NCBI RefSeq assembly: GCF_011044175.1
Contig: NZ_CP049057.1
Location: 310,001 to 374,000, forward strand
From: Rasiella rasia
GTDB lineage: Bacteria > Bacteroidota > Bacteroidia > Flavobacteriales > Flavobacteriaceae
DNA: 64,000 nt
Reading direction: 5' to 3'
A program made the position numbers and the translations under genes. Below, piece by piece: positions 1,486 through 21,814 of this stretch (the first letter of the stretch is position 1; each line of letters starts with the position of its first letter). Below the pieces are notes generated by a model that saw only the letters and a program-made list of their open reading frames with translations, was not told where the DNA came from and made no database searches.

Positions 1486-3462
1486 ACAAACCTATATACC
1501 CCTGTGAATAAATCTTCCAAAATATTAAGTAAACTCTTTGTTGGCGACAATAAATTACGGCTCTTAGACCAACGGTATTTACCACGTTGGATTGTTGTGT
1601 TAATTGATGTATTGTTATGCGGTTTGGCATTAGCTGTTTCTTATTTTATTTTGAGCGATACACGCATTGCCTTTCATGATGTTCTTTCCGTACCTGAGCA
1701 AATGCTTGTGATTTTGGCGGTGAATCTTACCTTCTTTTTTGTGTTTAAAAGCTATTCTGGCATTATTAGGCACTCCACATTTATAGATATCGTTAAACTT
1801 GCGTTTACGTCTATTTCAACCGCGGTAATTGTCCTTTTAGGAAATGAGATTTTTGCAGCATTAGAAGACCAAAAAATATTTCTAACGACCTTCATGTTGC
1901 TCTACATGTTCACTTCGTTTACATTTATGTTGTTCTTTAGAATTTCAGTAAAAGAAAGTTATACTTTTTTGCGAAATGCAGCACATAGCGAGAGCAAAAA
2001 GAAAATTGCCATCATAGGTATCGATGATCCTACCGTTTCTTTGGCAAAAGCAATAGTTACTGAAAGTGAATTACCTTATACCTTGGTAGGCTTTCTTACA
2101 CAAAATACGAGTACAAAACGTGTGCAAATATTGGGGAAGCCCGTAATTTCTTCTTCTAATCTTTCTGAAAGTTTAAATAAGTTGGAGGCTGAGGCTGTAT
2201 TATTAATGAGCGATTCGTTTTCTGGTCGGGAAAAAAATGAAATAGTTGAAAGCTGCTTGAACGCAGGAGTAGAGATTCTGAATGTACCCAACCTTCAAAA
2301 CTGGAAAAAGAAGGAAGATATTAGTAACCAGATAAAACCTTTAGAAATTGAAGATTTATTAGAGCGTAGTCCAATTCGTCTTGACGACACCGTGTTGGCA
2401 AACGATTTAAAAGGTAAAACAGTACTCGTAACTGGTGGCGCGGGTTCTATTGGTAGTGAAATTGTACAGCAATTAGCTACCTTTAAGCCAGCTTTAGTCG
2501 TGATTTTAGATCAGGCAGAGTCTGCCTTGCATGAGTTAGAGTTGTCTTTACGCCTAAACTATCCAGACTTTAATTTTATTACAGAACTGGCAGACATTAG
2601 TAATATGTATCGTCTTGAACTTATGTTCAAGAAATACAATTTTAATATTATATATCATGCTGCGGCATACAAACATGTTCCGCTTATTGAAAGAAATCCG
2701 CATGAAGCTATTTACGTTAATTTATTAGGAACTATTAACCTTTGTTTTCAATCAGTTTCTAACAAAATTGATCGCTTCGTAATGGTTTCTACAGACAAAG
2801 CTGTGAACCCTACAAACGTAATGGGTGCCTCTAAGCGCGCAGCCGAAATGTACGTGCAGGCACTTCAACAGGAACCAGAAACTACAACTAAGTTTATTAC
2901 CACAAGATTTGGAAATGTGTTAGGTTCTAATGGTTCTGTAATACCTCATTTTAAAAAGCAAATTGCGCAAGGAGGTCCGGTAACAGTAACGCATAAAGAT
3001 ATCATTAGATATTTTATGACCATACCAGAAGCTTGCCAACTAGTAATGCAAGCAGGTACTATGGGAAAAGGAGGTGAGATCTACGTTTTTGATATGGGAG
3101 AGCCAGTTAAAATTATAGATCTAGCCAAACGTATGATTCGTTTATCGGGACTGGAACCTTATGAAGATATAGACATAAAAATTACAGGACTGCGCCCTGG
3201 GGAGAAGCTGTACGAGGAGTTACTAAACGATACCAATGTGGTATTACCAACACACCATCCTAAGATTATGATTTCGAGTGTTCCTTCGGTTGCATTTTCT
3301 GAGATTAAGGCGAAATCTGAAGAAATCATTAGAACAGCTACAAAGCGTGATGACGAAAGCGTGGTTGCTTTGCTAAAGGAGATAGTTCCAGAATTTAGAA
3401 GTCAGAATTCAACTTTTGAAAGGCTAGATAAGCCAAAAAATAAAGCGCTAACAAAAATATAG
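1483..3462 (+). CDS. membrane-bound nucleoside-diphosphate-sugar 4,6-dehydratase (PglF/WbpM/FlaA1-like)
   Basis: About 659 residues: roughly four N-terminal membrane segments (residues ~35-170), a CoA-binding-like Rossmann linker, and a C-terminal extended short-chain dehydrogenase domain. The NAD-binding TGGAGSIGSE lies near residue 316. STDKAVNPTNVMGASKR near residue 436 has the Met-x-x-x-Lys pattern of the PglF/WbpM class instead of the usual Tyr-x-x-x-Lys. It should convert UDP-GlcNAc to a UDP-4-keto-6-deoxy sugar, feeding the aminotransferase 13 bp upstream. The start is uncertain: the TTG at 1483 lies inside a perfect TAnnTTTG promoter box (1478-1485), so GTG at 1504 is an alternative that loses only seven residues. 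Confidence 0.88.
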   Translation: MTNLYTPVNKSSKILSKLFVGDNKLRLLDQRYLPRWIVVLIDVLLCGLALAVSYFILSDTRIAFHDVLSVPEQMLVILAVNLTFFFVFKSYSGIIRHSTFIDIVKLAFTSISTAVIVLLGNEIFAALEDQKIFLTTFMLLYMFTSFTFMLFFRISVKESYTFLRNAAHSESKKKIAIIGIDDPTVSLAKAIVTESELPYTLVGFLTQNTSTKRVQILGKPVISSSNLSESLNKLEAEAVLLMSDSFSGREKNEIVESCLNAGVEILNVPNLQNWKKKEDISNQIKPLEIEDLLERSPIRLDDTVLANDLKGKTVLVTGGAGSIGSEIVQQLATFKPALVVILDQAESALHELELSLRLNYPDFNFITELADISNMYRLELMFKKYNFNIIYHAAAYKHVPLIERNPHEAIYVNLLGTINLCFQSVSNKIDRFVMVSTDKAVNPTNVMGASKRAAEMYVQALQQEPETTTKFITTRFGNVLGSNGSVIPHFKKQIAQGGPVTVTHKDIIRYFMTIPEACQLVMQAGTMGKGGEIYVFDMGEPVKIIDLAKRMIRLSGLEPYEDIDIKITGLRPGEKLYEELLNDTNVVLPTHHPKIMISSVPSVAFSEIKAKSEEIIRTATKRDDESVVALLKEIVPEFRSQNSTFERLDKPKNKALTKI

Positions 3463-8628: not shown

Positions 8629-9087
8629 TTGATTAAAGAAACCATTATAACTATATTGTGGAGTTTATCTCCCTTTGGAGAAGCCAAGGTGGGTATACCG
8701 TACGGTATCGCTAATGGTTTAAATCCGTTTTTCGTTTTTGTAATAGCGCTAGCTGCAAATATATTGGTGTTTCCAATTATGCTATTTTTTCTGAAATATA
8801 TAAATACATCACTCTTGCGATGGCGTTTCTATAAGAAATCTGCAATTTGGGTAGCAAGAAGAGCGAAAACAGGATCGGGGAATAAAATCGAAAAATACGG
8901 GTTTTGGGGACTTATCTTCTTTGTGTCAATACCCCTGCCTGGCACCGGTGTCTATGCAGGAACCATCGCGGCTTATATTTTTAAAATTGAACGTAAAAAA
9001 GCGTTTTGGGCCAATGTAATTGGCATCTCTATTTCTTCTATTATTGTCTGGGTTACTACCTTTCTTACCGTAAACGGGGTGGCATAG
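8629..9087 (+). CDS. small multidrug-export family membrane protein (COG2426-like)
   Basis: 152 residues starting at TTG (IKETIITILWSLSPFGEAKVGIPYG...). It has four hydrophobic segments and the family hallmarks: SPFGEAKVGIPYGIANG at the N-terminus and FFVSIPLPGTGVYAGT near residue 105, similar in style to SNARE-associated/DedA half-repeats. The Pfam name 'small multidrug export' is historical, and transport of a specific drug has not been shown for most members. The TTG start is supported by the -7 box 18 nt upstream and by the lack of an in-frame ATG near the conserved N-terminus. Confidence 0.82.
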   Translation: MIKETIITILWSLSPFGEAKVGIPYGIANGLNPFFVFVIALAANILVFPIMLFFLKYINTSLLRWRFYKKSAIWVARRAKTGSGNKIEKYGFWGLIFFVSIPLPGTGVYAGTIAAYIFKIERKKAFWANVIGISISSIIVWVTTFLTVNGVA

Positions 9088-9118
9088 AAAATTTTTAACT
9101 TTCACTAATTCAGTAATT

Positions 9119-9165
9119 TACGTGTTTTTACGTATGGTGTGATTTGTTTGTTGATAGTACTTTAG
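9119..9165 (+). promoter_or_regulatory. paired TACGTA operator plus -7 box, first copy (collar operon)
   Basis: Half-sites TACGTG (9119-9124) and TACGTA (9129-9134) lie 10 bp apart. A -7-like box TACTTTAG (9158-9165, one mismatch to TAnnTTTG) follows after exactly 23 nt. The ATG at 9196 lies 30 nt further on. The upstream flank (CAGTAATTTACGT) nearly repeats that of the site at 13656. The same spacing recurs at 13656 and 58602. Confidence 0.65.
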
Positions 9166-9195
9166 CACTATTATTAACCAAATAAATTTTAAAAT

Positions 9196-9564
9196 ATGTA
9201 CACACTAAACGTGAAAAACAATTACATCTGGCCAATAAGCACAAGTGAGGCTAAGAATATCCCTGCTAAGGGAGGTTCTGCAGCATTTGAGAAGCAGGGT
9301 AATATAATTTTAGAAGTTCCGGGTATGGGAGCACTTAATTTTATAGACATTGCCGCCGATAGAATTCCAGGGTTTCCGAATCCGCAACATTGGGGAGTTC
9401 TTATTAGAACACACAGTATAGAAGCCTACTACCGCTATGAAGGTGGGGGAGAGCTAACAGCAACGTTTGATAAATTCGGAACGTGCACGTTAACGACTTC
9501 TAATGGCTCACTGATTTCAATTTCTTTACCAGAACTTGTTGTCGATGACAAAGGGATCGAATAA
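9196..9564 (+). CDS. hypothetical beta-rich protein leading the collar operon
   Basis: 122 residues, not recognised. There is no signal peptide or membrane segment. The sequence alternates hydrophobic and polar residues and is rich in Gly, Thr and Ile, suggesting a small all-beta fold. Notable stretches are WPISTSEAKNIPAKGG, PNPQHWGVLIRTHS and a near-terminal LISISLPELVVDD. It is the first gene behind the paired TACGTA promoter and lies 37 nt upstream of an MdpB-type collar protein, so the two are probably co-transcribed and related in function. A sugar-binding or fibre-associated accessory role is only a guess. Confidence 0.75.
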   Translation: MYTLNVKNNYIWPISTSEAKNIPAKGGSAAFEKQGNIILEVPGMGALNFIDIAADRIPGFPNPQHWGVLIRTHSIEAYYRYEGGGELTATFDKFGTCTLTTSNGSLISISLPELVVDDKGIE

Positions 9565-9601
9565 AAACTAACCAATATAAATTTAAAAAAACAAAGATAT
9601 T

Positions 9602-10117
9602 ATGACACCATTTTTAGGACAAATACAAGCATTCGGATTTAATTTTGCGCCACGCGGCTGGGCAATATGTCAAGGACAGTTATTACCAATTAGCCAATAC
9701 TCCGCATTATTCGCTTTAATAGGGACTACCTTTGGGGGAGACGGCCGTACATCATTCGGTTTACCCGATTTAAGGAGTCGTTCAATCGTTGGCATTGGTA
9801 ATGGACCAGGGCAAGACAATATTTCTTGGGGAGAAAGAGGAGGTAATCATACGCACACAATGACTGTTGCGCAGATGCCGCAGCACAATCACTCTGTAAA
9901 AGTAGGCGTAAATACCGGAACTGGCGATGAAGCAAGCTCAACCTCAGTACTTTCGAGCTCTGCAAACTCCTTTTCAGAAGATGTAACGCCTGGCGCTTCA
10001 TTAGGAGGAGTAACCCAATCGAATATGGGGAGCGGTCAAGCATATAATATTCGTAATCCGTATTTAGGAATCTACGTATGTATTGCACTGCAAGGAGTAT
10101 TCCCGTCAAGAAGCTAA
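9602..10117 (+). CDS. phage tail collar domain protein (MdpB / microcystin-dependent type), copy 1
   Basis: 171 residues. The N-terminal Phage_Collar domain is clear: FGFNFAPRGWAICQGQLLPI near residues 12-31, then FGGDGRTSFGLPDLRSR. A His-rich stretch follows (GGNHTHTMTVAQMPQHNHS). The C-terminus has the family's usual end (NPYLGIYVCIALQGVFPSRS). There is no signal peptide. Such genes are scattered in non-phage bacterial genomes, often in tandem, and their role is unknown. No other tail genes are nearby, so this is not a prophage remnant. It pairs with copy 2 at 11943, and both have the FSED-TPGA-LGGVT motif. An intrinsic terminator follows. Confidence 0.9.
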   Translation: MTPFLGQIQAFGFNFAPRGWAICQGQLLPISQYSALFALIGTTFGGDGRTSFGLPDLRSRSIVGIGNGPGQDNISWGERGGNHTHTMTVAQMPQHNHSVKVGVNTGTGDEASSTSVLSSSANSFSEDVTPGASLGGVTQSNMGSGQAYNIRNPYLGIYVCIALQGVFPSRS

Positions 10118-10137
10118 TCAGTATATTTTCTTTTATG

Positions 10138-10163
10138 GCCCGCCTTTTAGTGCGGGCTTTTTT
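10138..10163 (+). terminator. intrinsic terminator after first collar operon
   Basis: GCCCGC (10138-10143) and GCGGGC (10152-10157) form a 6-bp GC stem with an 8-nt loop followed by six T. The T run overlaps the stop codon of the convergent methyltransferase gene. Confidence 0.85.
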
Positions 10164-11190
10164 AATTAACAGATGTAAGTAAATAGGGATCGTCACTAAG
10201 TATATACCTGGTTGTAATGGTTTTTTTACCACCCGTAACAGCGTTTGAAATCATTGAAGATGTTGTTAAGCCGCTTTCTCGAAATTTAATCTTTTCAGAA
10301 TCATACACATGAATATCTGTTAATATGGCTAGCGCTGTTTTCTCTTTCAGCTGTTCTTCAGAAAAATTAACTACGTGTTCAGCAAAGGAGAACCCTGGTT
10401 TAAAAAATGTATGAGCGTCTTGTAAAATTGCATCTTTATTTAAGGTGAACACTGGATCAGATTTTTCCATAAAATCTGTGGCAGGTGTATTTGAATTGGT
10501 TAGTAAAGAATTATTCATACCCGATATGTCTATGGCGGCAATGTGCAATGAAATCTCCTGCGGGATTAAAATAGTGTCTTTATTTAATTGCGGGAGTAAG
10601 TTATAACATATGGCTACCTGGGGTTCGCGCGCTAATGCATGTTGTAAACATTCTACCACTAAAATATCTGCTTCGGTATTTTTTGGTAATTTAAAAATAC
10701 TGGCGTCACAATTATGAATGGAATGAACATAACTCTCTGCGTCCATTTTAGTTATTACTCTTTTGAGACTCTCAACGCTATGCAGATTTACTTCTATAAG
10801 TATGAGCTGAAGCTCAGCTGGGCTAAAGATAGTAGTTAGCGGCATGAGTAAAGTTGCAAAGGGCCCGGTACCCGTATACAAGACTGTTATCGGTCTATTT
10901 GGATTTTCTTTTTGCTTTGAAAGAATAGCTTTGTATATACCAGTTATAAATCGTTTGGTTCTAATCATATCGTCTAGGCATCTACTGGCCCATTTAGGGG
11001 CAATCGCCACTCCAGAGGGTAAATGCACTGTTGCTTCCATCTCTGGCTTATTAAAATCTACTTCAGATAATGTAGAGAATATACTTTGTAATTCCGTAAG
11101 AGCCTTTGAAAGCTGTAAATAGTCAATCTCGGGATTTAGAATTGTAGTAGTTATTTCTTTAATAGCCTGATTATTATTCATATTGTTCAT
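10162..11190 (-). CDS. SAM-dependent methyltransferase, PRMT-like
   Basis: 342 residues. A Rossmann-type SAM-binding motif VLYTGTGPFATLL lies near residue 100. The acidic end of strand 2 (LILIEVN) is about 25 residues later. A post-II segment VVECLQHALAREP and LNKDTILIPQEISLHIAAID resemble the 'E-loop plus IP(Q)' region of protein arginine methyltransferases. The resemblance is partial: the double-E loop is not fully preserved, so the substrate is open. It lies on the opposite strand inside the collar cluster, between the two collar operons, with a degenerate paired operator just upstream. Modification of a protein of the same cluster is an inference only. Confidence 0.62.
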   Translation of the reverse strand: MNNMNNNQAIKEITTTILNPEIDYLQLSKALTELQSIFSTLSEVDFNKPEMEATVHLPSGVAIAPKWASRCLDDMIRTKRFITGIYKAILSKQKENPNRPITVLYTGTGPFATLLMPLTTIFSPAELQLILIEVNLHSVESLKRVITKMDAESYVHSIHNCDASIFKLPKNTEADILVVECLQHALAREPQVAICYNLLPQLNKDTILIPQEISLHIAAIDISGMNNSLLTNSNTPATDFMEKSDPVFTLNKDAILQDAHTFFKPGFSFAEHVVNFSEEQLKEKTALAILTDIHVYDSEKIKFRESGLTTSSMISNAVTGGKKTITTRYILSDDPYLLTSVN

Positions 11191-11373: not shown

Positions 11374-11919
11374 ATGAAAAAAATTACCTCACGGAGGTTG
11401 TTTTTGCAGAAGTCTGCAATAGCAACAACGGGTGTAGCTCTATTGTCCTCAGGCCTAGCCAATGCCCTAACAACAGAATGTCCATTTGCTGGTTATAATC
11501 CGTATATAGAAGAGAAAACAGATCTTCGTATTTCTTTATTTGGTAAAGAAATTAAAGTGAATGGAACTCTTTATGATAAAAGTACTGGACAACCCATTCA
11601 AAATGCCACTATTGAAGTCTGGCATCTTTCTCAAAACTCTACTAAATTTCGAAACCGTGGTCAGTTAAAAACAAACAGCTCAGGTGACTACAACTTCATT
11701 TCTAACTTTCCGAATAAACCAAAAGACAAAGCAGCACGTGTCTATTTTAAAGTAAGTCATGCGGGTAGAACAGATTTTACCGAGCTAGTTCTAAATAATA
11801 CTGGCGCTCATATTTCAGCAAAACACTGGGAGACAAATCAAAATTTAGGAAAAAAACTATTCCCTAAAACAAATATGTTTTTAGGAGATACACAAATAGA
11901 ATTCAATCTTTCAATATAA
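11374..11919 (+). CDS. Tat-exported intradiol-dioxygenase-like protein, probably not catalytic
   Basis: 181 residues. The N-terminus has a twin-arginine signal (SRRLFLQK, then a hydrophobic run ending GLANA). The body follows the intradiol ring-cleavage dioxygenase fold: VNGTLYDKSTGQPIQNATIEVWH, then RGQLKTNSSGDYNF. The four iron ligands of the family (two Tyr, two His) are missing. The first Tyr position reads Phe (STKF), the second Tyr is absent in FPNKPKDK, and the His-x-His motif is replaced by ARVYFKVS. It is therefore probably a binding or structural protein. It begins a three-gene run with collar copy 2 (23 nt gap) and the binding protein. The leader AACTAACTAATT is shared with two neighbours. 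Confidence 0.75.
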   Translation: MKKITSRRLFLQKSAIATTGVALLSSGLANALTTECPFAGYNPYIEEKTDLRISLFGKEIKVNGTLYDKSTGQPIQNATIEVWHLSQNSTKFRNRGQLKTNSSGDYNFISNFPNKPKDKAARVYFKVSHAGRTDFTELVLNNTGAHISAKHWETNQNLGKKLFPKTNMFLGDTQIEFNLSI

Positions 11920-11942: not shown

Positions 11943-12497
11943 ATGGATCCTTTTATAGCACAAATAGTAATGTTTGGAGGTAATTTCGCACCAAGAGGCT
12001 GGGCAAACTGCGACGGACAATTATTACCAATTTCACAATATCAAGCCTTATTTTCTTTACTCGGTACTATGTATGGTGGCGATGGGCGAACCACATTTGG
12101 TCTACCAGAGCTACGAGGTAGGATGGCTATGCACGTGGGTAATGGTCCTGGATTGAGCAATAGACAGCAGGGTCAAAAAGGTGGGCAAGAAACTGTTGTA
12201 GCTACTGTTGCTACCTTGGCAAATCATACACATACGGCAAGTTCTACTGCAACAACTACAATTGCTGTTGCGGCTTCATCTGGTGGAGAAGGTATTGCTT
12301 CAGGTCAAGTTATCTCAAATCACCCTGGTGCGTTTAGTGAAGATTCAACACCCGGAGCTACGCTTGGAGGTGTAACCTCTACAGCTGCTACAACCGTAAA
12401 CCCTATTGGAGGACAGCAACAACAAAATAATGTACCGCCTTTTCAGGTAGTTCGGTTTATCATTGCATTAGAAGGTACATATCCGTCAAGAAATTAA
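11943..12497 (+). CDS. phage tail collar domain protein (MdpB type), copy 2
   Basis: 184 residues. It carries the same architecture as the copy at 9602: FGGNFAPRGWANCDGQLLPI near residues 11-30, GGDGRTTFGLPELRGR, FSEDSTPGATLGGVT, and an end in RFIIALEGTYPSRN. The central part is Ala/Thr/Ser-rich (residues ~75-120), where copy 1 has a His-rich segment. There is no signal peptide. The start is preceded by ACTAACTAATTAAA, also found before the fibre gene at 58688. It is followed after 2 nt by the binding-protein gene, so the two are co-transcribed. The function of the family is unknown outside phages. Confidence 0.9.
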   Translation: MDPFIAQIVMFGGNFAPRGWANCDGQLLPISQYQALFSLLGTMYGGDGRTTFGLPELRGRMAMHVGNGPGLSNRQQGQKGGQETVVATVATLANHTHTASSTATTTIAVAASSGGEGIASGQVISNHPGAFSEDSTPGATLGGVTSTAATTVNPIGGQQQQNNVPPFQVVRFIIALEGTYPSRN

Positions 12498-12499
12498 TT

Positions 12500-13639
12500 A
12501 TGGCAATTAAGCTAGGTATTCTGTTACCAAGGTCAGACATGTATCCAAGGCTAGCCCTAGATTTTGTGAATGGCTTTAAACATGCCTTGTCTATGCATCC
12601 TTCTAAAGGAGCTCAGACAGAATTAGTAATAGAAAGTGCTGGAACTGCCAGTAACGAAAACCTGCTTAAATCTGCAGAAAAATTACTGCTTCAAGATAAT
12701 GTTGATGCAGTAATTTCTTTTTGTGGAATGACCCTGATTAATCAATTTATAGCGCTTTTCAATAATTATAGAAAACCGCTCTTGCATATAGACATTGGTA
12801 GCTCATATTTAAAGAAAGAGAATAAAAGTCCGTATGTGCTTCATGTCACCCTCGGTGTGTGTCAAGCTAGTTATCTAGCAGGAGCCTATGCAGCCAAGAA
12901 CTACGGAAAGAAAGGATATTCTGCTTCATCTGTATATGATGGAGCCTATCACCTTACCGAGAGTTTTGTTCGTGGTTACGCGAGTGAAGGGGGTGCGATT
13001 GATAAGTTTTACGTGAGCCCGATGGACTATAAGTCTGAAACTTTTGAAACGCTTGTAGACGATATTAATGCTATTAAACCAGATGTAATTTTTGCCACTT
13101 TCAGCTATAAGGAAGGTCAAAAAGTTTTCAATGTTTTGGCCAAAGATGATCGAGCAATGTCAACTCCAATTGTGGCAATACCATTAATGACAGAGGAATG
13201 TACAATTTCTGAAAGTTTAACTATTGAAAATGTAGTGTCAATGGCATCATGGTCTTTTAATGATGAAACTGAGGCAATGAAGACTTTTCAGAAAGAATTT
13301 GAAGCCCAATACGATGATGCTCCAAATATAATTTCACTTCTTGGGTATGAGGCAGGCCTCACATTAATGACTTGCATTTCTTCTGAAGAAAAATTAGAGA
13401 AAAACCTAGAAGCTGCAATTAAAAATAAAACAATCGATTCACCCAGAGGGAAAATTTTGTTTAACAGTTTAAATGAATCACAACCAGAGGCATTTTTGCT
13501 TCGGAAATTGGAATTTATCAATAATGAAATTCAAAACAACGTAGTTGAAACTTTTGACGTTAATTTTTTGGAAGGACTGTATAGCGAATTTGAAGAAGTT
13601 GCCTATACGGGTTGGCATAACCCATATATTTGTACTTAA
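12500..13639 (+). CDS. type-1 periplasmic-binding-fold protein without signal peptide
   Basis: 379 residues. The fold of branched-chain amino-acid/AmiC-type binding proteins is visible: an N-terminal IKLGILLPRSDMYPRLALDFVNGF, AVISFCGMTLINQF in the first lobe, KPDVIFATFSYKEGQ, and the C-terminal SPRGKILFN. Unlike ordinary ABC substrate-binding proteins it starts directly at the fold (MAIKLGI) with no Sec, Tat or lipoprotein signal, and no permease or ATPase gene is nearby. It is probably cytoplasmic or exported in an unknown way, and could act as a ligand sensor. It begins 2 nt after the collar gene stop, which implies coupled translation. Confidence 0.8.
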   Translation: MAIKLGILLPRSDMYPRLALDFVNGFKHALSMHPSKGAQTELVIESAGTASNENLLKSAEKLLLQDNVDAVISFCGMTLINQFIALFNNYRKPLLHIDIGSSYLKKENKSPYVLHVTLGVCQASYLAGAYAAKNYGKKGYSASSVYDGAYHLTESFVRGYASEGGAIDKFYVSPMDYKSETFETLVDDINAIKPDVIFATFSYKEGQKVFNVLAKDDRAMSTPIVAIPLMTEECTISESLTIENVVSMASWSFNDETEAMKTFQKEFEAQYDDAPNIISLLGYEAGLTLMTCISSEEKLEKNLEAAIKNKTIDSPRGKILFNSLNESQPEAFLLRKLEFINNEIQNNVVETFDVNFLEGLYSEFEEVAYTGWHNPYICT

Positions 13640-13655
13640 TTAATAACCAGTAAAT

Positions 13656-13702
13656 TACGTATAACTACGTATTTATAATAAGTTAAAGGACTCGTATTTT
13701 TG
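13656..13702 (+). promoter_or_regulatory. paired TACGTA operator plus -7 box, second copy (HYR giant)
   Basis: TACGTA at 13656-13661 and at 13666-13671 (10 bp apart), then 23 nt, then TATTTTTG (13695-13702), an exact TAnnTTTG box. The ATG of the giant gene at 13748 lies 45 nt downstream. Same arrangement as 9119-9165 and 58602-58648. Confidence 0.7.
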
Positions 13703-13747
13703 CTTTTCAAACTAGTCAATACGATAATCGAATTAAATAATACCATT

Positions 13748-16700
13748 ATGAAAAAAATTACCTTACTCTGTATCGCGCTCTGCTCACTATTTCTAGTGAC
13801 CAACAGTTTTGCACAAAAAGTTGTAATTGTAGGAATGAATCATATCTCTGGAGGTGCAGGGGACGATGGATTTACTTTTGTTGCTACAGAAAATATTCCA
13901 GGGGGAGAGGTAATTTACTTCACCGAAAATGAATATGTAAGTGGTTCTAATGCTTTTACTTTTGGTACAGGTACGACAGGTGAAGGTGTAATTAGATATG
14001 TTGTTGGTGCCGGAGGGCTTGCAACGGGAGTCGTTGTTTTTATTAACGAAGATTTGGGTTCCAATGCATTTACGATTACATGTTCTTCTGGTGATTGTGG
14101 TTCACTTACGGCCTCTACCACCAATGGTAATGGTTCTTTTAATTTAGCTACCAACGGAGATGGTCTGTATGCATATTCAGATACAGATGAGAATGTGTTA
14201 AATGGTATTACTCAAATATATTCGGTAATGTATACTGGCTCAGGTGAAAGCCTGTTGCAAAACGGTGGAGCTATTCCGGCTAGTGAGAGTCCAGCAATAG
14301 ATTATCCAAATGCAGTAATCGTAGATGGTTTTCCTAACGACTCAGATGACTTTGTTGGTCCAGATAGAGTCGAGTATGTGTTCAACCCTGCTACTCTAAG
14401 AGATGGTGTAAGTCAAGCGAGTCTTGAGAATCCAACAAACTACGTAAGTTATGTTTCACAACAACTGTTATCTACAGTGCCTTTTACCAATTTAAATCTT
14501 GGTGGTGCAAATCCAGTTTTAACGGTTACAACGGCGCCAACTTCAGTAAATGAAAACAGTGGAACTGGAATGGTATATACGTTCACACTATCAGCAGCAG
14601 CAGTAGGACCTGTTACCGCTAATTTTTCAGTAGGCGGAACAGCGACTTTCTCAACAGACTATAACCAATCTGGAGCAGCTAGTTTTAACGCCTCTACAGG
14701 AACAGTTACCATTCCGAATGGTGCAACAACGGCATCAGTGACCATTACGCCTGTTGGCGATGGAACTTTAGAGCCAGACGAAACTGTTGTTTTAACTATA
14801 ACTTCTGGTACAGGATACGATGCCGGTGCGCCTAGTATAGGAACCGGAACAATTATAAATGACGATAGTATCTCTGTTACGCCACTTGTCGCAGTGACAG
14901 GTTCAACGCACTCACCACCCATAACACCCGAAAGCTTTTCTTTTGTTGCCTTAGACGATATAGGAGCGGGTGTACAAGTATATTTTACTGAAAGAGATTT
15001 TAACAACAACCAATTAAACTTCTCTGGCGGAGGAGGAGGTGTTGCAGTATGGACTGCACCAGCAGGAGGTATTGTACGAGGTGAAGTTGTAGTAGTTGCA
15101 GAAACAGGTTCGAATGTTTTTACTACTTCTTGTAATAGCGGAACCTGCGGTTCGGTATCCATTATAAGCGGTACTTGGGACTTGGCAAGTCAAGGTGCTT
15201 CTATATTTGCATATCGAGATTCAGATACAAACCCAGAAAACGGAATTACAAGCGTTGACGCTGTATTATTTACAGGAACGTCATCTGCTTCAGGAGGAAA
15301 TATTCCAGCTATAGAAGACCCTTCAGGCGTATATGCGGGATCTGTGGTAGTAGATGGTTTTCCATCAGCTCCTTCAGAAAGAACAGAATATGATCCAACA
15401 CTTCGCGGAGTGACTGTAGATCAAGCAAATTTTCAAAATATAGCAAACTGGTTGCATTCGCAACCAACGGGAGCACTTTCTCCAGTACCTTTTGCAAACA
15501 TTATTATTACAACAGGATCTGCGAATCCAGCACTGTCGGTAACGGTAGCACCGTCTACTACTGTTGAAGATAGCGGAACAAGTATGGTGTATACGTTCTT
15601 GCTTGATGCACCAGCGGCGGCAGATACCACGGTTAATTTTGATGTTTCAGGTACAGCCACACTTACAACCGATTATACGGTTAGCGGAGCAGCTACTTTT
15701 AGTGCAACAGCAGGTACTGCTTTAATTACCACTGGAAATACTTCTGTAGATGTAACAATTACACCCGTTGTAGACGCTATTGTTGAACCTACCGAGACCA
15801 TTGAGCTAATGGTAGCTTCTGGAACAGGTTATGATGGAGGAACGCCAAATGCTGCTACTGGAAGCATTACAAATGACGATACAAGTATGTCTGATCCTCT
15901 AGTTGCAGTTATGGGTATGACACACGAATTAGGATCGATGGATTCATTTTCGTTTGCGGCTGCACAAGATGTACCTGCAGGAACGGTTGTATATTTTACA
16001 GAAGAATCATTTAATAACACTACCCTAATGTTTGCTTCAACTGGAGAAGGAGTTGTGCAGTGGACTGCCCCAGCTGGCGGACAAATTGATCAGGGGGATG
16101 TTATAGTAATTACAGAAACCGCGTCTAACGTGTTTACAGCTACATGTTCAGACACATCTGGTTTTGGGTGTGGTACGGCGGTGCTTGTCTCAGGAACTTT
16201 TGCTCTTGCATCAAATGGAGAAACTTTTTATGCATATGAAGATAGTGATACCGACCCAACAAATGGTGTTGACGATATTTATTCAGTAATGTATACAGGT
16301 GTTTCTGCTACGCCAGGTGGAAATATTCCACCAAGCGAAGATCCATCAGGCATCTATTTAAGTGCTTTGGTGGTTGATGGCTTTGCGGCCGTTGCACCAA
16401 GAAAAACAGAATATACTCCAGGAAGTCGTAATGTACTAGTAGGCATGGCAGATTTCGAAAACCCTTCAAATTATGACAATGGAGTTGCTCCAGGAGCTGG
16501 TTTATCTACTGTGCCATTTGCAAATTTAAATATCGTAGTTACATTTACGGCTCCTGCAGACCTTTGTGTAGACGCTGGAGTGCAAGCCGGTCTTGGAGGT
16601 GGTTCGCCAACAGGAGGGGTGTATAGTGGTCCTGGTGTTACAGACGATGGAAATGGAATGACCTATAGCTTCGATCCTGCCGCTGCAGGTGTTGGAGTGC

Positions 16701-19700
16701 ATACGCTTTCATATACTTCTGGAGGAACTGCTGTTACCGATGATATTGAAGTTTTTGCCCTTCCTACAGTAACCTTTACAGCTCCTGCCGACCTCTGTGT
16801 TGATGCGGGGGTACAAGCTGGTTTAGGTGGCGGAACTCCTACAGGAGGCGTGTATAGCGGAACAGGCGTAACCGACGACGGAAATGGAACAACGTATTCC
16901 TTTGATCCTGCAGCAGCAGGGGTTGGGACGCACACCATAACCTATAACTTTACAGACGGAAATGGTTGTTCTGGTTCAGCTTCAGACGATGTAGAAGTAT
17001 TCGCATTGCCAACAGTAACCTTTACAGCCCCGGCCGATCTTTGTGTTGATGACGGTGTACAAACTGGTTTAGGTGGCGGAACTCCTACTGGTGGAGTGTA
17101 TAGCGGCCCCGGCGTTACTGATGATGGTAACGGAACAACGTATTCCTTTGATCCTGCAGCAGCAGGGGTGGGAACGCATACCTTAACCTACACGTTTACT
17201 GATGCTAATGGGTGTACAGGAAGCGCAACCGATGATATTGAAGTATTTGAATCACCCACAATTTTCTCAGCCGGTACAGGAACAACAATAACATTATCTG
17301 CTAATAATTGTAATGCTGGAGGAGAATATACTTTAGAAGCAACCCTTTTTAATGGTCGTCCATCGTATTTGAGAGCCAGCCCATTTAATGCTTTTATCCG
17401 TTGGGATGGCACACAATGGGGTGTGTTTGATGATTTTGGAAATGTAGCAATGATTAATACGATAAATACGCCCACACCACCTTGTTCAGATTTGTCACCA
17501 TGGCAAGCTTCTCTCTGTAGTCCAAGTACTGTTACCGGCGATGGAACAACCTGTGATGATTTTTCACCATCGGATGTATGTATAAATTCTGGTATTCAAA
17601 CGGGACTGGGTAACGTCAATCCTACTGGAGGAGTTTATTCAGGTACTGGAGTAACTGATGATGGCAACGGGATGACCTATAGCTTTGATCCTGCAGCAGC
17701 AGGGGTTGGGACGCACACAATAACCTATACCGTTACCAATGGCAATGGTTGTACGGCAACGGCTTCAAGCGATGTAGAAGTTTTCGCTTTACCAACAGTA
17801 ACCTTTACAGCCCCAGCAGACCTTTGTGTCGATGCCGGTGTGCAAGCTGGTTTAGGGGGCGGAACTCCAACAGGAGGCGTGTATAGTGGTCCTGGCGTTA
17901 CTGATGATGGCAACGGAATGACCTATAGTTTTGATCCTGCAGCGGCAGGGGTAGGGACGCACACAATAACCTATACATTTACGGATGGCAATGGCTGTAC
18001 TGCAAGCGCTACAGACGATGTTGAAGTATTTGCATTGCCTACAGTAACTTTTACTGCACCTGCAAGTCCTGTTTGCCCTACACTAGTATTAACTGGACAA
18101 GGTGGTGGAACACCAATAGGGGGTGTATATAGTGGTCCTGGTGTTACCGATGATGGTAACGGAATGACGTATACTTTTGATACCAATGCTTCTGGAACAG
18201 GAACTCATACCATTACGTATACCTATACAGATGGAAATGGTTGTACGGCATCAGATTCTGATACAGTAACCGTAGAAGATAATGACCCGCCCGCAATTAC
18301 TTGTCCAGCAGACATAACAGTAGATAATGACCCAGGAGAATGTGGGGCAATTGTAACGTTTGCGGCAACAGCAACCGATAACTGCCCAAGTACGGTAAGC
18401 ATTACCTATTCGCAAGATCCAGGTACGCAATTCCCAGTGGGAACCACTACCGTAACGGCTACTGCAACAGATGGTGCTGGAAATTCAGCAACTTGCACAT
18501 TCAATGTAACCGTAAATGATGCAGAAGACCCAACAATAACATGCCCAGGAGATATTACAGTTAATAATGATCCTGGAAATTGTGGGACTGTTGTAACTTA
18601 TACATCTCCAATGGCAACTGATAACTGTTCTGGATTTATTACTACTGAAACATTCGATTTCACAGGAGCTATGCAAACATTTACAGTTCCGTCAGGTGTA
18701 ACAAGCATCTCAATTGAGGCATTTGGTGGAGCAGGACAAGACATGATTATCGAAGATTTTGATCCGAGTATCGGTGGCCTTGGTGGTCAAGCGAGTGGAG
18801 ACTTGGCGGTTACCCCTGGCGATGTACTTACTATTTTTGTAGGTGGTGAGGGTGTTGATGGTATTGGCGGATTTAACGGTGGCGGAGTAGGAGGCTTTGG
18901 AACACCTTCTACAGGAACCGGTGGGTTTGCAGGTAGTGGAGGAGGAGCTTCTGACGTACGCTTAGGAGGAATGACATTAGCAGATCGTGTAATCGTTGCC
19001 GGTGGCGGTGGCGGTGGTGGAAGAGATTATGTAAATGGTAGTTGCGTACCTTGCGGTATTGGTGGTAACGGTGGCTCAGGAGGAGGATTCACTGGTACCG
19101 ACGGAGAGGATCCTTCATGGAGTGGAATTCTAGGTGCTTTTCCAAATGCTGGAGCTGGTGGTAAAGGAGGAACTCCTGCCATGGGCGGTGCTGCAGGAAA
19201 CGGTCCTAACGGCCCTCCTGGAAACCCAGGTACTCTAGGAATTGGGGGTATTGGAGTAGATGGAACGCAAAGTGTAGCTAGCGGTGGCGGTGGTGGCGGT
19301 TTCTACGGTGGTGGTTCTGGTGGCGGAGGTAATTCTGGGGACGGATTTGCTGGTGCAGGTGGAGCTGGAGGTTCTAGTTATGTAGGTGGTGTTACTTCAG
19401 GTATGACAAATGCCGGAGTGCGTACTGGAAATGGTCAAATAATTATTACATACGCGGCATTGAGTGTTACTCAAACTGCTGGTCTACCTAGCGGAAGTAC
19501 TTTCCCAGTAGGAACAACAACTAACACCTTTGTGGTAACAGACGGAGCTGGAAATACAGCTACGTGTAGTTTTGACGTAACGGTGAACGACACCGAAAAT
19601 CCTGTTATTACCTGTCCAGCCAATATTACAGTGAATAACGATCCAGGAGCGTGTGGAGCCATCGTATCTTTTGCAGCAACTGCAACCGATAACTGTAGTG

Positions 19701-21814
19701 CGGCAGTAACATATTCTCAAGATCCAGGAACAAGTTTTCCAGTGGGAACCACAACCGTTACCGCAACGGCTACCGATCCTTCTGGAAATACAGCGACCTG
19801 TACCTTTGATGTAACAGTTGTAGACAACGAACCTCCTGTTGCAGTATGTACAGATATTACAGTACAATTAGATGCTACAGGAAATGCTAGTATTACACCT
19901 GGAGATATCGATGGTGGCTCTACAGATAACTGCGGAATCGCTGCGCTTGGGATTTCTCCAAGTACATTTACCTGTGCCGATGTAGGGGCTAACACAGTAA
20001 CCTTAACAGTAACCGATGTAAACGGAAACAGCAGTACGTGTACCGCAACAGTAACCGTTGAAGACAACGTAGCACCAACAGCAGTGTGTCAGGATATCAC
20101 AATCCAACTAGATGCTAACGGCGATGCAAGTATCGTAGCTGCCGATGTTGACGGAGGTTCTACCGATGCCTGCGGAATAGCGTCTATTGCAGTCGATATA
20201 GATACCTTCGATTGTTCTAATGTTGGACCAAACAATGTAACACTAACGGTAACCGATGTAAACGGAAATACAAGCTCTTGTGTAGCTGTAGTAACCGTAG
20301 AAGACAACATAGCACCAATGATTTTCTGTCCAGCAGATATAGTTGCTCCTACTAACAATGGTGAATGTGGCGCTACCGTTACCTTCCCACTTCCTGTAGG
20401 CACCGATAACTGTGGTATCGACTTTGTTGTTCAACAAGCAGGTATTGCTAGTGGTGAAATATTCCCGATAGGGGTTACCACGAACCAGTTTATTGTAGTA
20501 GATGTTAACGGAAACACAGCTACGTGTAGCTTTACGGTAACAGTAACAGACGATGATCCACCAATGGCGGTTTGTCAAGATATTACAGTGATGCTAGATG
20601 CTACAGGAAATGCTACCATTGTAGCCGCCGATGTAGATGGAGGTTCTACCGATAACTGTGCAATTACAAGCTTGAGTATCGATATAGACAGCTTTACCTG
20701 TGCAGACCTCGGTGACAATATTGTAACCCTTACTGCTACAGATGCTGGAGGATTAAGCAGTAGCTGTACAGCCATAGTAACTGTAGAGAATGGTGTTATG
20801 CCAAATGCAGTCTGCCAAGACGCTAGCGTGCAGTTAGATGCACTAGGAATGGTTAGTATTATAGATGCATCCATCTTCGATGGAGGGTCTACAGACGCTT
20901 GTGGGGGCACGAACCTTACTTTTAGTGTATCTCCAGACACATTTACTTGTGCAGACGTAGGAGACAACACGGTAACCATAACAGTTACAGACGATGGTGG
21001 TAATACTTCAACATGTACAGCAACGCTAACAGTAGAAGATGTAATAGCTCCAACAGTTAGTTGTATGGATCTTACCGTATCACTCGATGCAAATGGAGAG
21101 GCGAGTATAGACCCAGCAGACCTTGTGGTGATGAGCGACGATATCTGTGGTATTGCTCAAACCTCTGCAGACATTACAGATTTTAACTGTGATGATGTAG
21201 GAACACCAATTGTGGTAACGGTAACAGTAGAAGATCCTTCAGGGAACACTGCAACATGTACCGCAACAGTAACAGTTCTTGATGAAATAGCTCCAGAATT
21301 AGATTGTCCTGTAGACTTTACAGTACAAACTATAGAAGGAACTCAGTATGAAGTAGAAAACTTTATCACATCAGGAGCGGTAACTGCTACAGATAATTGT
21401 ACAGACCCTGTCAATGTTGTAAGTCAATCACCAGCAGTTGGTGACTTGTTAGACCCAGGCGTGTATCCGGTGACTATTACCGTATCTGATGCTTCAGGTA
21501 ATGAGGCAGACTGTACTTTCAATCTTACTGTAGAAGCCGTACTAGGAATAGGTGATAATAGCTTTGATATTTCAAGCGTAAGCATGTATCCAAACCCTGC
21601 TACAGACTTCGTTATGTTGAGCAATCCGCAACATATTCCGTTACAAGACGTGCGTATTTACGATGTAACAGGACGTTTGATAAAGACGATAGATGCAAGA
21701 GAGACGCTTTCAGAAATGAGTATAGATATTTCAGAATTAGCAAGTGCCACCTATTTGTTCTTAGTGAATACAGAAAACGGAGAACAACTAACGCATCAGA
21801 TTGTAAAAGAGTAA
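13748..21814 (+). CDS. 2688-residue secreted multidomain HYR/Calx-beta/glycine-rich protein with T9SS sorting domain
   Basis: The ATG at 13748 is used because it gives a signal peptide (MKKITLLCIALCSLFLVTNSFA); an in-frame TTG at 13700 lies inside the promoter box. Order of modules: three copies of an unnamed ~215-residue module opening LVAV-GM-H (~13820-14510, 14885-15530, 15895-16540), the first two each followed by a Calx-beta domain. Six ~80-residue Ig-like repeats follow (TFTAPADLCVDAGVQ; 16541-18282), broken by a ~100-residue insert (17257-17568). Ten HYR-type repeats follow (TCPADITV...; 18283-21540), the second split by a ~273-residue glycine-rich domain (18641-19459). The end is a T9SS type A domain (SMYPNPATDFVML... 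to VKE). It is probably a cell-surface adhesin or matrix protein moved by T9SS. Confidence 0.9.
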   Translation: MKKITLLCIALCSLFLVTNSFAQKVVIVGMNHISGGAGDDGFTFVATENIPGGEVIYFTENEYVSGSNAFTFGTGTTGEGVIRYVVGAGGLATGVVVFINEDLGSNAFTITCSSGDCGSLTASTTNGNGSFNLATNGDGLYAYSDTDENVLNGITQIYSVMYTGSGESLLQNGGAIPASESPAIDYPNAVIVDGFPNDSDDFVGPDRVEYVFNPATLRDGVSQASLENPTNYVSYVSQQLLSTVPFTNLNLGGANPVLTVTTAPTSVNENSGTGMVYTFTLSAAAVGPVTANFSVGGTATFSTDYNQSGAASFNASTGTVTIPNGATTASVTITPVGDGTLEPDETVVLTITSGTGYDAGAPSIGTGTIINDDSISVTPLVAVTGSTHSPPITPESFSFVALDDIGAGVQVYFTERDFNNNQLNFSGGGGGVAVWTAPAGGIVRGEVVVVAETGSNVFTTSCNSGTCGSVSIISGTWDLASQGASIFAYRDSDTNPENGITSVDAVLFTGTSSASGGNIPAIEDPSGVYAGSVVVDGFPSAPSERTEYDPTLRGVTVDQANFQNIANWLHSQPTGALSPVPFANIIITTGSANPALSVTVAPSTTVEDSGTSMVYTFLLDAPAAADTTVNFDVSGTATLTTDYTVSGAATFSATAGTALITTGNTSVDVTITPVVDAIVEPTETIELMVASGTGYDGGTPNAATGSITNDDTSMSDPLVAVMGMTHELGSMDSFSFAAAQDVPAGTVVYFTEESFNNTTLMFASTGEGVVQWTAPAGGQIDQGDVIVITETASNVFTATCSDTSGFGCGTAVLVSGTFALASNGETFYAYEDSDTDPTNGVDDIYSVMYTGVSATPGGNIPPSEDPSGIYLSALVVDGFAAVAPRKTEYTPGSRNVLVGMADFENPSNYDNGVAPGAGLSTVPFANLNIVVTFTAPADLCVDAGVQAGLGGGSPTGGVYSGPGVTDDGNGMTYSFDPAAAGVGVHTLSYTSGGTAVTDDIEVFALPTVTFTAPADLCVDAGVQAGLGGGTPTGGVYSGTGVTDDGNGTTYSFDPAAAGVGTHTITYNFTDGNGCSGSASDDVEVFALPTVTFTAPADLCVDDGVQTGLGGGTPTGGVYSGPGVTDDGNGTTYSFDPAAAGVGTHTLTYTFTDANGCTGSATDDIEVFESPTIFSAGTGTTITLSANNCNAGGEYTLEATLFNGRPSYLRASPFNAFIRWDGTQWGVFDDFGNVAMINTINTPTPPCSDLSPWQASLCSPSTVTGDGTTCDDFSPSDVCINSGIQTGLGNVNPTGGVYSGTGVTDDGNGMTYSFDPAAAGVGTHTITYTVTNGNGCTATASSDVEVFALPTVTFTAPADLCVDAGVQAGLGGGTPTGGVYSGPGVTDDGNGMTYSFDPAAAGVGTHTITYTFTDGNGCTASATDDVEVFALPTVTFTAPASPVCPTLVLTGQGGGTPIGGVYSGPGVTDDGNGMTYTFDTNASGTGTHTITYTYTDGNGCTASDSDTVTVEDNDPPAITCPADITVDNDPGECGAIVTFAATATDNCPSTVSITYSQDPGTQFPVGTTTVTATATDGAGNSATCTFNVTVNDAEDPTITCPGDITVNNDPGNCGTVVTYTSPMATDNCSGFITTETFDFTGAMQTFTVPSGVTSISIEAFGGAGQDMIIEDFDPSIGGLGGQASGDLAVTPGDVLTIFVGGEGVDGIGGFNGGGVGGFGTPSTGTGGFAGSGGGASDVRLGGMTLADRVIVAGGGGGGGRDYVNGSCVPCGIGGNGGSGGGFTGTDGEDPSWSGILGAFPNAGAGGKGGTPAMGGAAGNGPNGPPGNPGTLGIGGIGVDGTQSVASGGGGGGFYGGGSGGGGNSGDGFAGAGGAGGSSYVGGVTSGMTNAGVRTGNGQIIITYAALSVTQTAGLPSGSTFPVGTTTNTFVVTDGAGNTATCSFDVTVNDTENPVITCPANITVNNDPGACGAIVSFAATATDNCSAAVTYSQDPGTSFPVGTTTVTATATDPSGNTATCTFDVTVVDNEPPVAVCTDITVQLDATGNASITPGDIDGGSTDNCGIAALGISPSTFTCADVGANTVTLTVTDVNGNSSTCTATVTVEDNVAPTAVCQDITIQLDANGDASIVAADVDGGSTDACGIASIAVDIDTFDCSNVGPNNVTLTVTDVNGNTSSCVAVVTVEDNIAPMIFCPADIVAPTNNGECGATVTFPLPVGTDNCGIDFVVQQAGIASGEIFPIGVTTNQFIVVDVNGNTATCSFTVTVTDDDPPMAVCQDITVMLDATGNATIVAADVDGGSTDNCAITSLSIDIDSFTCADLGDNIVTLTATDAGGLSSSCTAIVTVENGVMPNAVCQDASVQLDALGMVSIIDASIFDGGSTDACGGTNLTFSVSPDTFTCADVGDNTVTITVTDDGGNTSTCTATLTVEDVIAPTVSCMDLTVSLDANGEASIDPADLVVMSDDICGIAQTSADITDFNCDDVGTPIVVTVTVEDPSGNTATCTATVTVLDEIAPELDCPVDFTVQTIEGTQYEVENFITSGAVTATDNCTDPVNVVSQSPAVGDLLDPGVYPVTITVSDASGNEADCTFNLTVEAVLGIGDNSFDISSVSMYPNPATDFVMLSNPQHIPLQDVRIYDVTGRLIKTIDARETLSEMSIDISELASATYLFLVNTENGEQLTHQIVKE
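18641..19459 (+). other. glycine-rich domain inserted within an HYR repeat
   Basis: The inserted segment starts with FDFTGAMQTFTVPSGVTSIS and ends with GNGQIIITYAA. Between these it is dominated by Gly runs (GGGGGGGRDY, GGGGGGFYGGGSGGGG) with one Cys pair (SCVPC). It resembles the Gly_rich domain known from ALK/LTK receptors and bacterial surface proteins. The host HYR repeat begins TCPGDITVNNDPGNCG and resumes at LSVTQTAGLPSGSTFPVGT. Confidence 0.75.

Follow-up and report, generated by a model that had tools for sequence, protein, structure and literature searches.

The protein encoded at positions 11374–11919 of the DNA analysed here, to which we give the working name TTR protein, is, as judged from sequence comparison, a new iron-less variant within the intradiol dioxygenase family, and its gene immediately precedes a Collar protein gene in a tight operon. 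Taken as a whole, the reading in which the TTR protein binds the collars as a non-catalytic partner has, in our estimate, an even chance of being right. The window is a stretch of 64,000 nt from Rasiella rasia (NZ_CP049057.1, positions 310,001–374,000), and positions are window positions unless another locus is named (Table 1). The TTR family would represent a family-wide case in which an iron enzyme has turned into a non-catalytic protein through traceable sequence steps, and in which living relatives keep the iron site. Moreover, the family offers a testable answer to how Collar proteins that carry no signal could leave the cell: some lineages would use a linked Tat protein and others a Sec signal.

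Table 1. Features of the TTR locus in the window and of the Tat protein genes of genus g20
Feature	Position	Strand	Description
122-aa gene, family unassigned	9196–9564	+	No Pfam match; homologues in L065, L069 and L080; recurs beside collar genes
Collar protein 1	9602–10117	+	No signal peptide; Pfam Collar E 1.2e-28; separate upstream unit
Methyltransferase-like gene	10162–11190	-	Divergent; PRMT5 E 0.034, below cut-off
TTR protein	11374–11919	+	Predicted to derive from an intradiol dioxygenase, without the iron site; 181 aa; ATG start
Tat signal peptide	11374–11466	+	Residues 1–31; twin-Arg SRRLFL, hydrophobic stretch, A-N-A ahead of the probable cleavage site
TTR residues 83–92 (WHLSQNSTKF)	11620–11649	+	Shortened loop at the site of intradiol ligand Tyr1
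TTR residues 113–124 (PNKPKDKAARVY)	11710–11745	+	Ligand Tyr2 deleted; catalytic Arg replaced by Lys119, His1 by Arg122, His2 by Tyr124
Collar protein 2	11943–12497	+	No signal peptide; Pfam Collar E 1.9e-29; starts 24 nt past the TTR stop
Periplasmic-binding-protein-like (SBP-like) gene	12500–13639	+	No signal peptide; Peripla_BP_6 E 8e-21
Large repeat protein	13700–21814	+	N-terminal signal; C-terminal part resembling a type IX sorting domain (by eye)
g20 Tat protein, locus L111	4252–4851	-	
g20 Tat protein, locus L133	892–1530	+	

An intradiol dioxygenase core without its iron site

The TTR gene is present as a single copy in its own 3.39 Mb genome. Its product begins with MKKITSRRLFLQKSAIATTG, including a typical Tat signal (MKKITSRRLFLQKSAIATTGVALLSSGLANA), and contains the fold-marker motif GTLYDKSTGQPIQNATIEVWH at residues 64–84, GDYNF at residues 104–108 and ARVYF at residues 121–125. 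Pfam yielded sub-threshold matches alone, to Dioxygenase_C (E 4.3e-4) and CarboxypepD_reg (E 7.9e-5), and the NCBIfam model TAT_signal_seq was also sub-threshold (E 0.02; 15.2 versus a cut-off of 16.7 bits). TatC is encoded in the same genome (E 6.1e-67). The TTR gene was the sole match of the Dioxygenase_C profile in this genome, below the cut-off, and by that test the genome therefore encodes no active paralogue.

Searches with one protein query (E<=1e-8) revealed relatives in 26 of 397 sampled same-family genomes, the window's own included; a further relative outside that count, from Gillisia lutea (L002), is identical to L019. The family alignment (A1) comprises 26 members with 25 to 60% identity to the window protein and omits L019, as the duplicate of L002, and L006–L009, which are true intradiols or an unrelated protein. 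Dioxygenase_C was matched by 21 of the 26 members at E<=0.01. The family profile was compared with 28 same-order intradiols, the remainder of 33 loci after a motif filter had removed five (four of which show HFH; the fifth is L043). This comparison gave a probability of 99.6 (E 1.6e-23) over the whole length in hhalign, and still 99.1 (E 4.8e-19) without the first 49 residues. Control profiles reached probabilities of 0.2 (Collar) and 0.1 (methyltransferase-like) against the TTR family, and the TTR protein is thus unrelated to the Collar-domain (PF07484) proteins encoded by its recurrent partner genes.

The closest known system is represented by the intradiol dioxygenases (PF00775) of the same-order Tat type, for example L006 and L041. 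The TTR protein matches the whole intradiol profile as well as the Tat-type N-terminus, and the two groups have in common the W-H/Q and G-x-Y-x-F core motifs and the C-terminal region. Unlike the intradiols, the TTR protein has both ligand Tyr residues deleted and the His-x-His motif, the catalytic Arg and the catalytic Gln replaced, and it is much shorter, at 181 aa compared with about 290–330 aa for most sampled intradiols. The motifs and the profile comparison bear out the claim of the earlier note that this ORF keeps intradiol fold markers together with a Tat signal.

The ligands were mapped with three hhalign settings and MAFFT L-INS-i, which agree on the gaps, in an alignment of family homologues with same-order intradiols that places the Tyr ligands in deletions. 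The first ligand Tyr, in the G-x-Y that follows the W-H/Q motif, falls within a deletion of ~4 residues in all 26 members; the second (P-G-x-Y) is placed by MAFFT L-INS-i within another deletion of ~4 residues, and hhalign sets residue 116 opposite it, which is Glu in 18/26 members and Tyr in 0/26. These ligands are presumably Tyr408 and Tyr447 in protocatechuate 3,4-dioxygenase numbering, and we take the second-shell catalytic Arg and Gln to be Arg457 and Gln477 of that enzyme. Arg (17/26) or Lys (4/26) predominates at the first His position (122), where Asn also occurs and His never does, and Tyr (16/26) or Phe (7/26) at the second (124). The position of the catalytic Arg (119) holds Lys in 16/26 and Arg in 3/26 members, and that of the catalytic Gln (137) holds Glu in 19/26 and Gln in 0/26. 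One aligned member out of 26, L027, has His at the old second His position.

By these alignments, the TTR family is a homologous intradiol core in which the iron site has been lost family-wide, through deletions in two loops and replacement of both His ligands. The ligand loss proposed in the earlier note therefore stands with respect to the iron site itself and to the replacement of the two His residues by Arg122 and Tyr124; its assignment of Phe92 to the old Tyr1 position does not. Phe92 was rejected as a ligand position, since it aligns with a non-ligand Tyr/Phe in 'YNLRGK', three residues before a conserved Arg.

AlphaFold models computed from two-sequence alignments had a pLDDT of 45.6 for the full-length protein and 57.3 for its mature part. 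Neither model had a Foldseek match at E<=0.001; one intradiol, 5vg2, ranked 30th (E 0.023) and 32nd (E 0.019) in the lists. The VIA-align rows shown contain no intradiol, an absence that excludes nothing. The mature model resembles several beta-sandwich families, including transthyretin and 5-hydroxyisourate hydrolase (HIUase), with Z 6.7–7.2 and rmsd 2.5–3.0 over 83–89 residues at a pLDDT of 57, and Z values below 8 may reflect the common beta-sandwich arrangement. This resemblance fits an intradiol ancestry and proves nothing. The TTR protein has no Pfam sequence match to the transthyretin family, and the label 'transthyretin-like' from the earlier note is weakly backed by such Z values to transthyretin and HIUase chains.

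It is very improbable that the protein is still an enzyme that works with a different metal, or by metal-free chemistry, at a new site formed by His84, His94, His151, Asp111 or Glu116/Arg122/Tyr124. All of these residues except Tyr124, given above, are widespread in the family at frequencies that would suit such a site (H84 23/26, H94 20/26, H151 24/26, D111 24/26, E116 18/26, R122 17/26). However, the window protein itself has Asn94, Asn111 and Pro116, and is thus variable where a catalytic set should not be. His84 occurs in many true intradiols as well (WH/WQ) and is therefore not a new feature, and the models are too weak for side chains or a new metal site to be placed.

Phylogeny and selection

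The maximum-likelihood tree separated 28 family rows from 35 intradiols by one branch (support 100/97). At the phylum level, 11 of 395 genomes gave a match to the family profile at E<=1e-8. One is the window's own and eight have intradiols; the other two (L172 and L176, both of genus g146) encode reduced Tat-bearing proteins, which are positioned on a long branch between the TTR family and the intradiols. A phage origin was rejected, as no relative was confirmed in viral contigs (12 pattern matches checked), found among 50,697 phage records or matched in PHROG. The plasmid search returned two partial matches, one of which is an annotated intradiol dioxygenase. In the open-access literature, we found nothing on the TTR protein family and no paper joining an intradiol dioxygenase with a tail collar, a phage tail collar with type IX secretion, or an intradiol with a pseudoenzyme.

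Sequence divergence indicates purifying selection on the TTR family. The estimate rests on one close pair, L003/L011, because dS is near or at saturation in the other four pairs; in L003/L011 dN was 0.053 and dS 0.234 (dN/dS about 0.23), and the ORF is therefore not a chance frame. These values already disfavour the least probable of the readings considered, that of a decaying ancestral Tat dioxygenase kept only through its place in the collar operon. The loss of all ligands, the low similarity among distant members and a long-branch pair of members without Tat signals would agree with such a relict, but the frame has no internal stops in 26/26 genomes and invariant positions are retained. Conserved residues of the family include G40-Y41, K48-D50-R52 and H151-W152. 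Since the fold is kept, the iron site is lost and selection is purifying, the best reading is the one proposed in the earlier note, namely that the fold has been reused for binding or structure.

The TTR gene is followed by a collar gene

All 24 loci with a Tat-bearing TTR protein have a Collar gene downstream on the same strand, immediately adjacent in 23 of them. The gap between the TTR stop and the Collar start is 5–32 nt in 23 of the 24 loci and 449 nt in L065, where a homologue of the 122-aa gene stands between the two. No fusion of a TTR gene with a Collar gene was seen. The shared operon implies co-expression of the two proteins, not binding.

In the window, the SBP-like gene begins 2 nt after Collar 2 and is followed by the large repeat protein. 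SBP-like genes follow in about 10/24 of the Tat-bearing TTR loci, and their N-termini show no hydrophobic stretch by eye in nine full-length genes at TTR loci and three elsewhere; the first Met shown for the SBP-like gene of L068 may be internal. This cluster could alternatively be understood if the TTR protein were a stand-alone periplasmic or surface binding protein for a glycan, an aromatic compound or a peptide, placed beside the collars for shared adhesion or sensing and making no contact with them. We consider this unlikely, though well worth weighing: the same cluster includes an SBP-like gene lacking a signal as well as a large secreted protein, and the weak similarity to CarboxypepD_reg and transthyretin-type domains concerns domains often used for binding. 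Nevertheless, it is the Collar gene that follows in 24/24 Tat-bearing members, whereas the SBP-like gene does so in about 10/24.

The combination of a signal-less SBP-like gene with signal-less collars recurs in G442 and G570. The distant relative G442 repeats the set, with three signal-less collars, an SBP-like gene, a formyltransferase-like gene (by eye), large secreted proteins and a Tat protein. Formyltransferase-like genes (by eye) were located within two collar clusters, at 8783–9760 (-) of L179 and 1558–2568 (+) of L133. The methyltransferase-like gene is divergent upstream in 15/24 Tat-bearing TTR loci, and its product may modify a cluster protein. Between this gene and the convergent Collar 1 gene lies a terminator-like hairpin (positions 10137–10158; 7 pairs, 6 of them G-C).

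Origin and retention of the Tat signal

The earlier note had regarded a Tat signal in a protein without its metal as an unusual clue. This was not borne out: an N-terminal twin-Arg is present in at least 21 of the 28 sampled same-order true intradiols, and the N-terminus of the TTR protein aligns with that of the Tat-type intradiols. The signal is therefore, on the sequence comparison, most simply explained as inherited rather than odd.

An RRxF motif with a hydrophobic stretch was found in 24/26 TTR family members. The two Tat-less members, L030 (G328) and L031 (G129), belong to one genus, have a different N-terminus and nest on a long branch inside the TTR family beside L018 (support 86/91). 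They are also the only two of the 26 without Collar genes, none being found near L030 or L031 or anywhere in G328 and G129 at E<=0.01. The retention of Tat in every Collar-linked member and its loss in one Collar-less genus suggest that the signal still matters. The joint loss of Tat and Collar was seen in a single genus and is perhaps one event. Both Tat-less genes adjoin a secreted repeat protein, perhaps marking a second change of function.

Collar proteins and their possible export

Collar genes were present in 90/397 sampled genomes, namely in 24/26 genomes with a TTR gene versus 66/371 without (Fisher p 5e-15, which is too small because the genomes are related). Adjacency in every Tat-bearing case is a stronger fact than this co-occurrence. 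Collars away from TTR genes were counted at 69 loci, covering part of the Collar genomes and including four loci in genomes with a TTR gene elsewhere; L158, which overlaps L070, was uncounted, and the L149 collar, which has no anchor, was omitted from the signal count, although by eye it does carry a Sec signal. A Sec signal was found in 29 of these 88 collars, and 59 were signal-less. Nearly all of the Sec signals end in A/S-Q (by eye), as the Bacteroidetes Q-rule predicts (PMC5837995). With 29/88 unlinked members carrying their own Sec signal, Collar proteins count here as an exported type.

Among TTR-linked collars, only 1/43 (L086) has a Sec signal by rule, and this signal was judged an artefact of an N-terminal extension that overlaps the previous gene. 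G224 and G391 carry both kinds, a linked signal-less collar and an unlinked Sec-bearing one; in G179 and G283, which also have a TTR gene, the unlinked collars (L156 and L157) are signal-less. A FastTree phylogeny, from which six collar rows of four loci were left out, showed the linked collars spread over several lineages of collars rather than forming one clade (12 label changes, 3 of them forced by starred branches).

How the TTR protein might assist these collars can be outlined as follows. Its ancestor would have been a Tat-exported intradiol dioxygenase, in which the iron site was then lost and the twin-Arg signal kept. The mature TTR domain would bind the co-encoded Collar protein or proteins, which carry no export signal themselves. 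In the favoured route, a folded collar would be bound by the TTR protein while still in the cytoplasm, and the two would pass the Tat translocon together, after which the collar could be displayed outside alongside the neighbouring large secreted protein; in a weaker form, the TTR protein would meet the collars only after separate export. Such hitchhiker export of the collars by means of the TTR Tat signal, an idea drawn by analogy, is rather unlikely to be correct. The same low probability attaches to the broader proposal that the former iron enzyme is now a Tat carrier for folded signal-less collars, and perhaps for the SBP-like protein too, with an unrelated small Tat protein filling the role in genus g20. 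A point against a carrier is that the Tat signal can be explained by ancestry alone.

The analogy rests on two systems. In PaoABC of E. coli, the Tat signal on PaoA is described as escorting PaoB and PaoC (PMC4273604), and in the FAD glucose dehydrogenase of Burkholderia cepacia (BcGDH), the alpha subunit is described as depending on the gamma subunit for its folding and secretion (PMC6719666). As in these systems, the TTR protein is a protein with a Tat signal that is co-encoded with signal-less partners. In contrast, the cargo of PaoABC and BcGDH is a redox enzyme whose export is backed by experiment, whereas the TTR cargo would be a phage-tail-like collar that is known here from sequence alone.

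A Tat partner for every signal-less collar was rejected, as a Tat pattern was found in the flanks of a few kb at 6 of the 69 TTR-less loci and was plausible at two (L111 and L133). With 59/88 unlinked collars signal-less and nearly all of these without a Tat neighbour, a Tat carrier cannot be deduced from a missing signal. The two plausible loci belong to genus g20, in which a TTR-less collar operon starts with another Tat protein of 200–213 codons that has no clear Pfam family and is related to the TTR family at the signal alone (hhalign 10.3%). Stand-alone collars with a Sec signal (L089, L090, L093, L096, L099, L102, L104 and others) in several cases have the same neighbours, including a gene beginning with MAETIRLNKVL that looks like initiation factor 2, which hints at an orthologous secreted collar locus.
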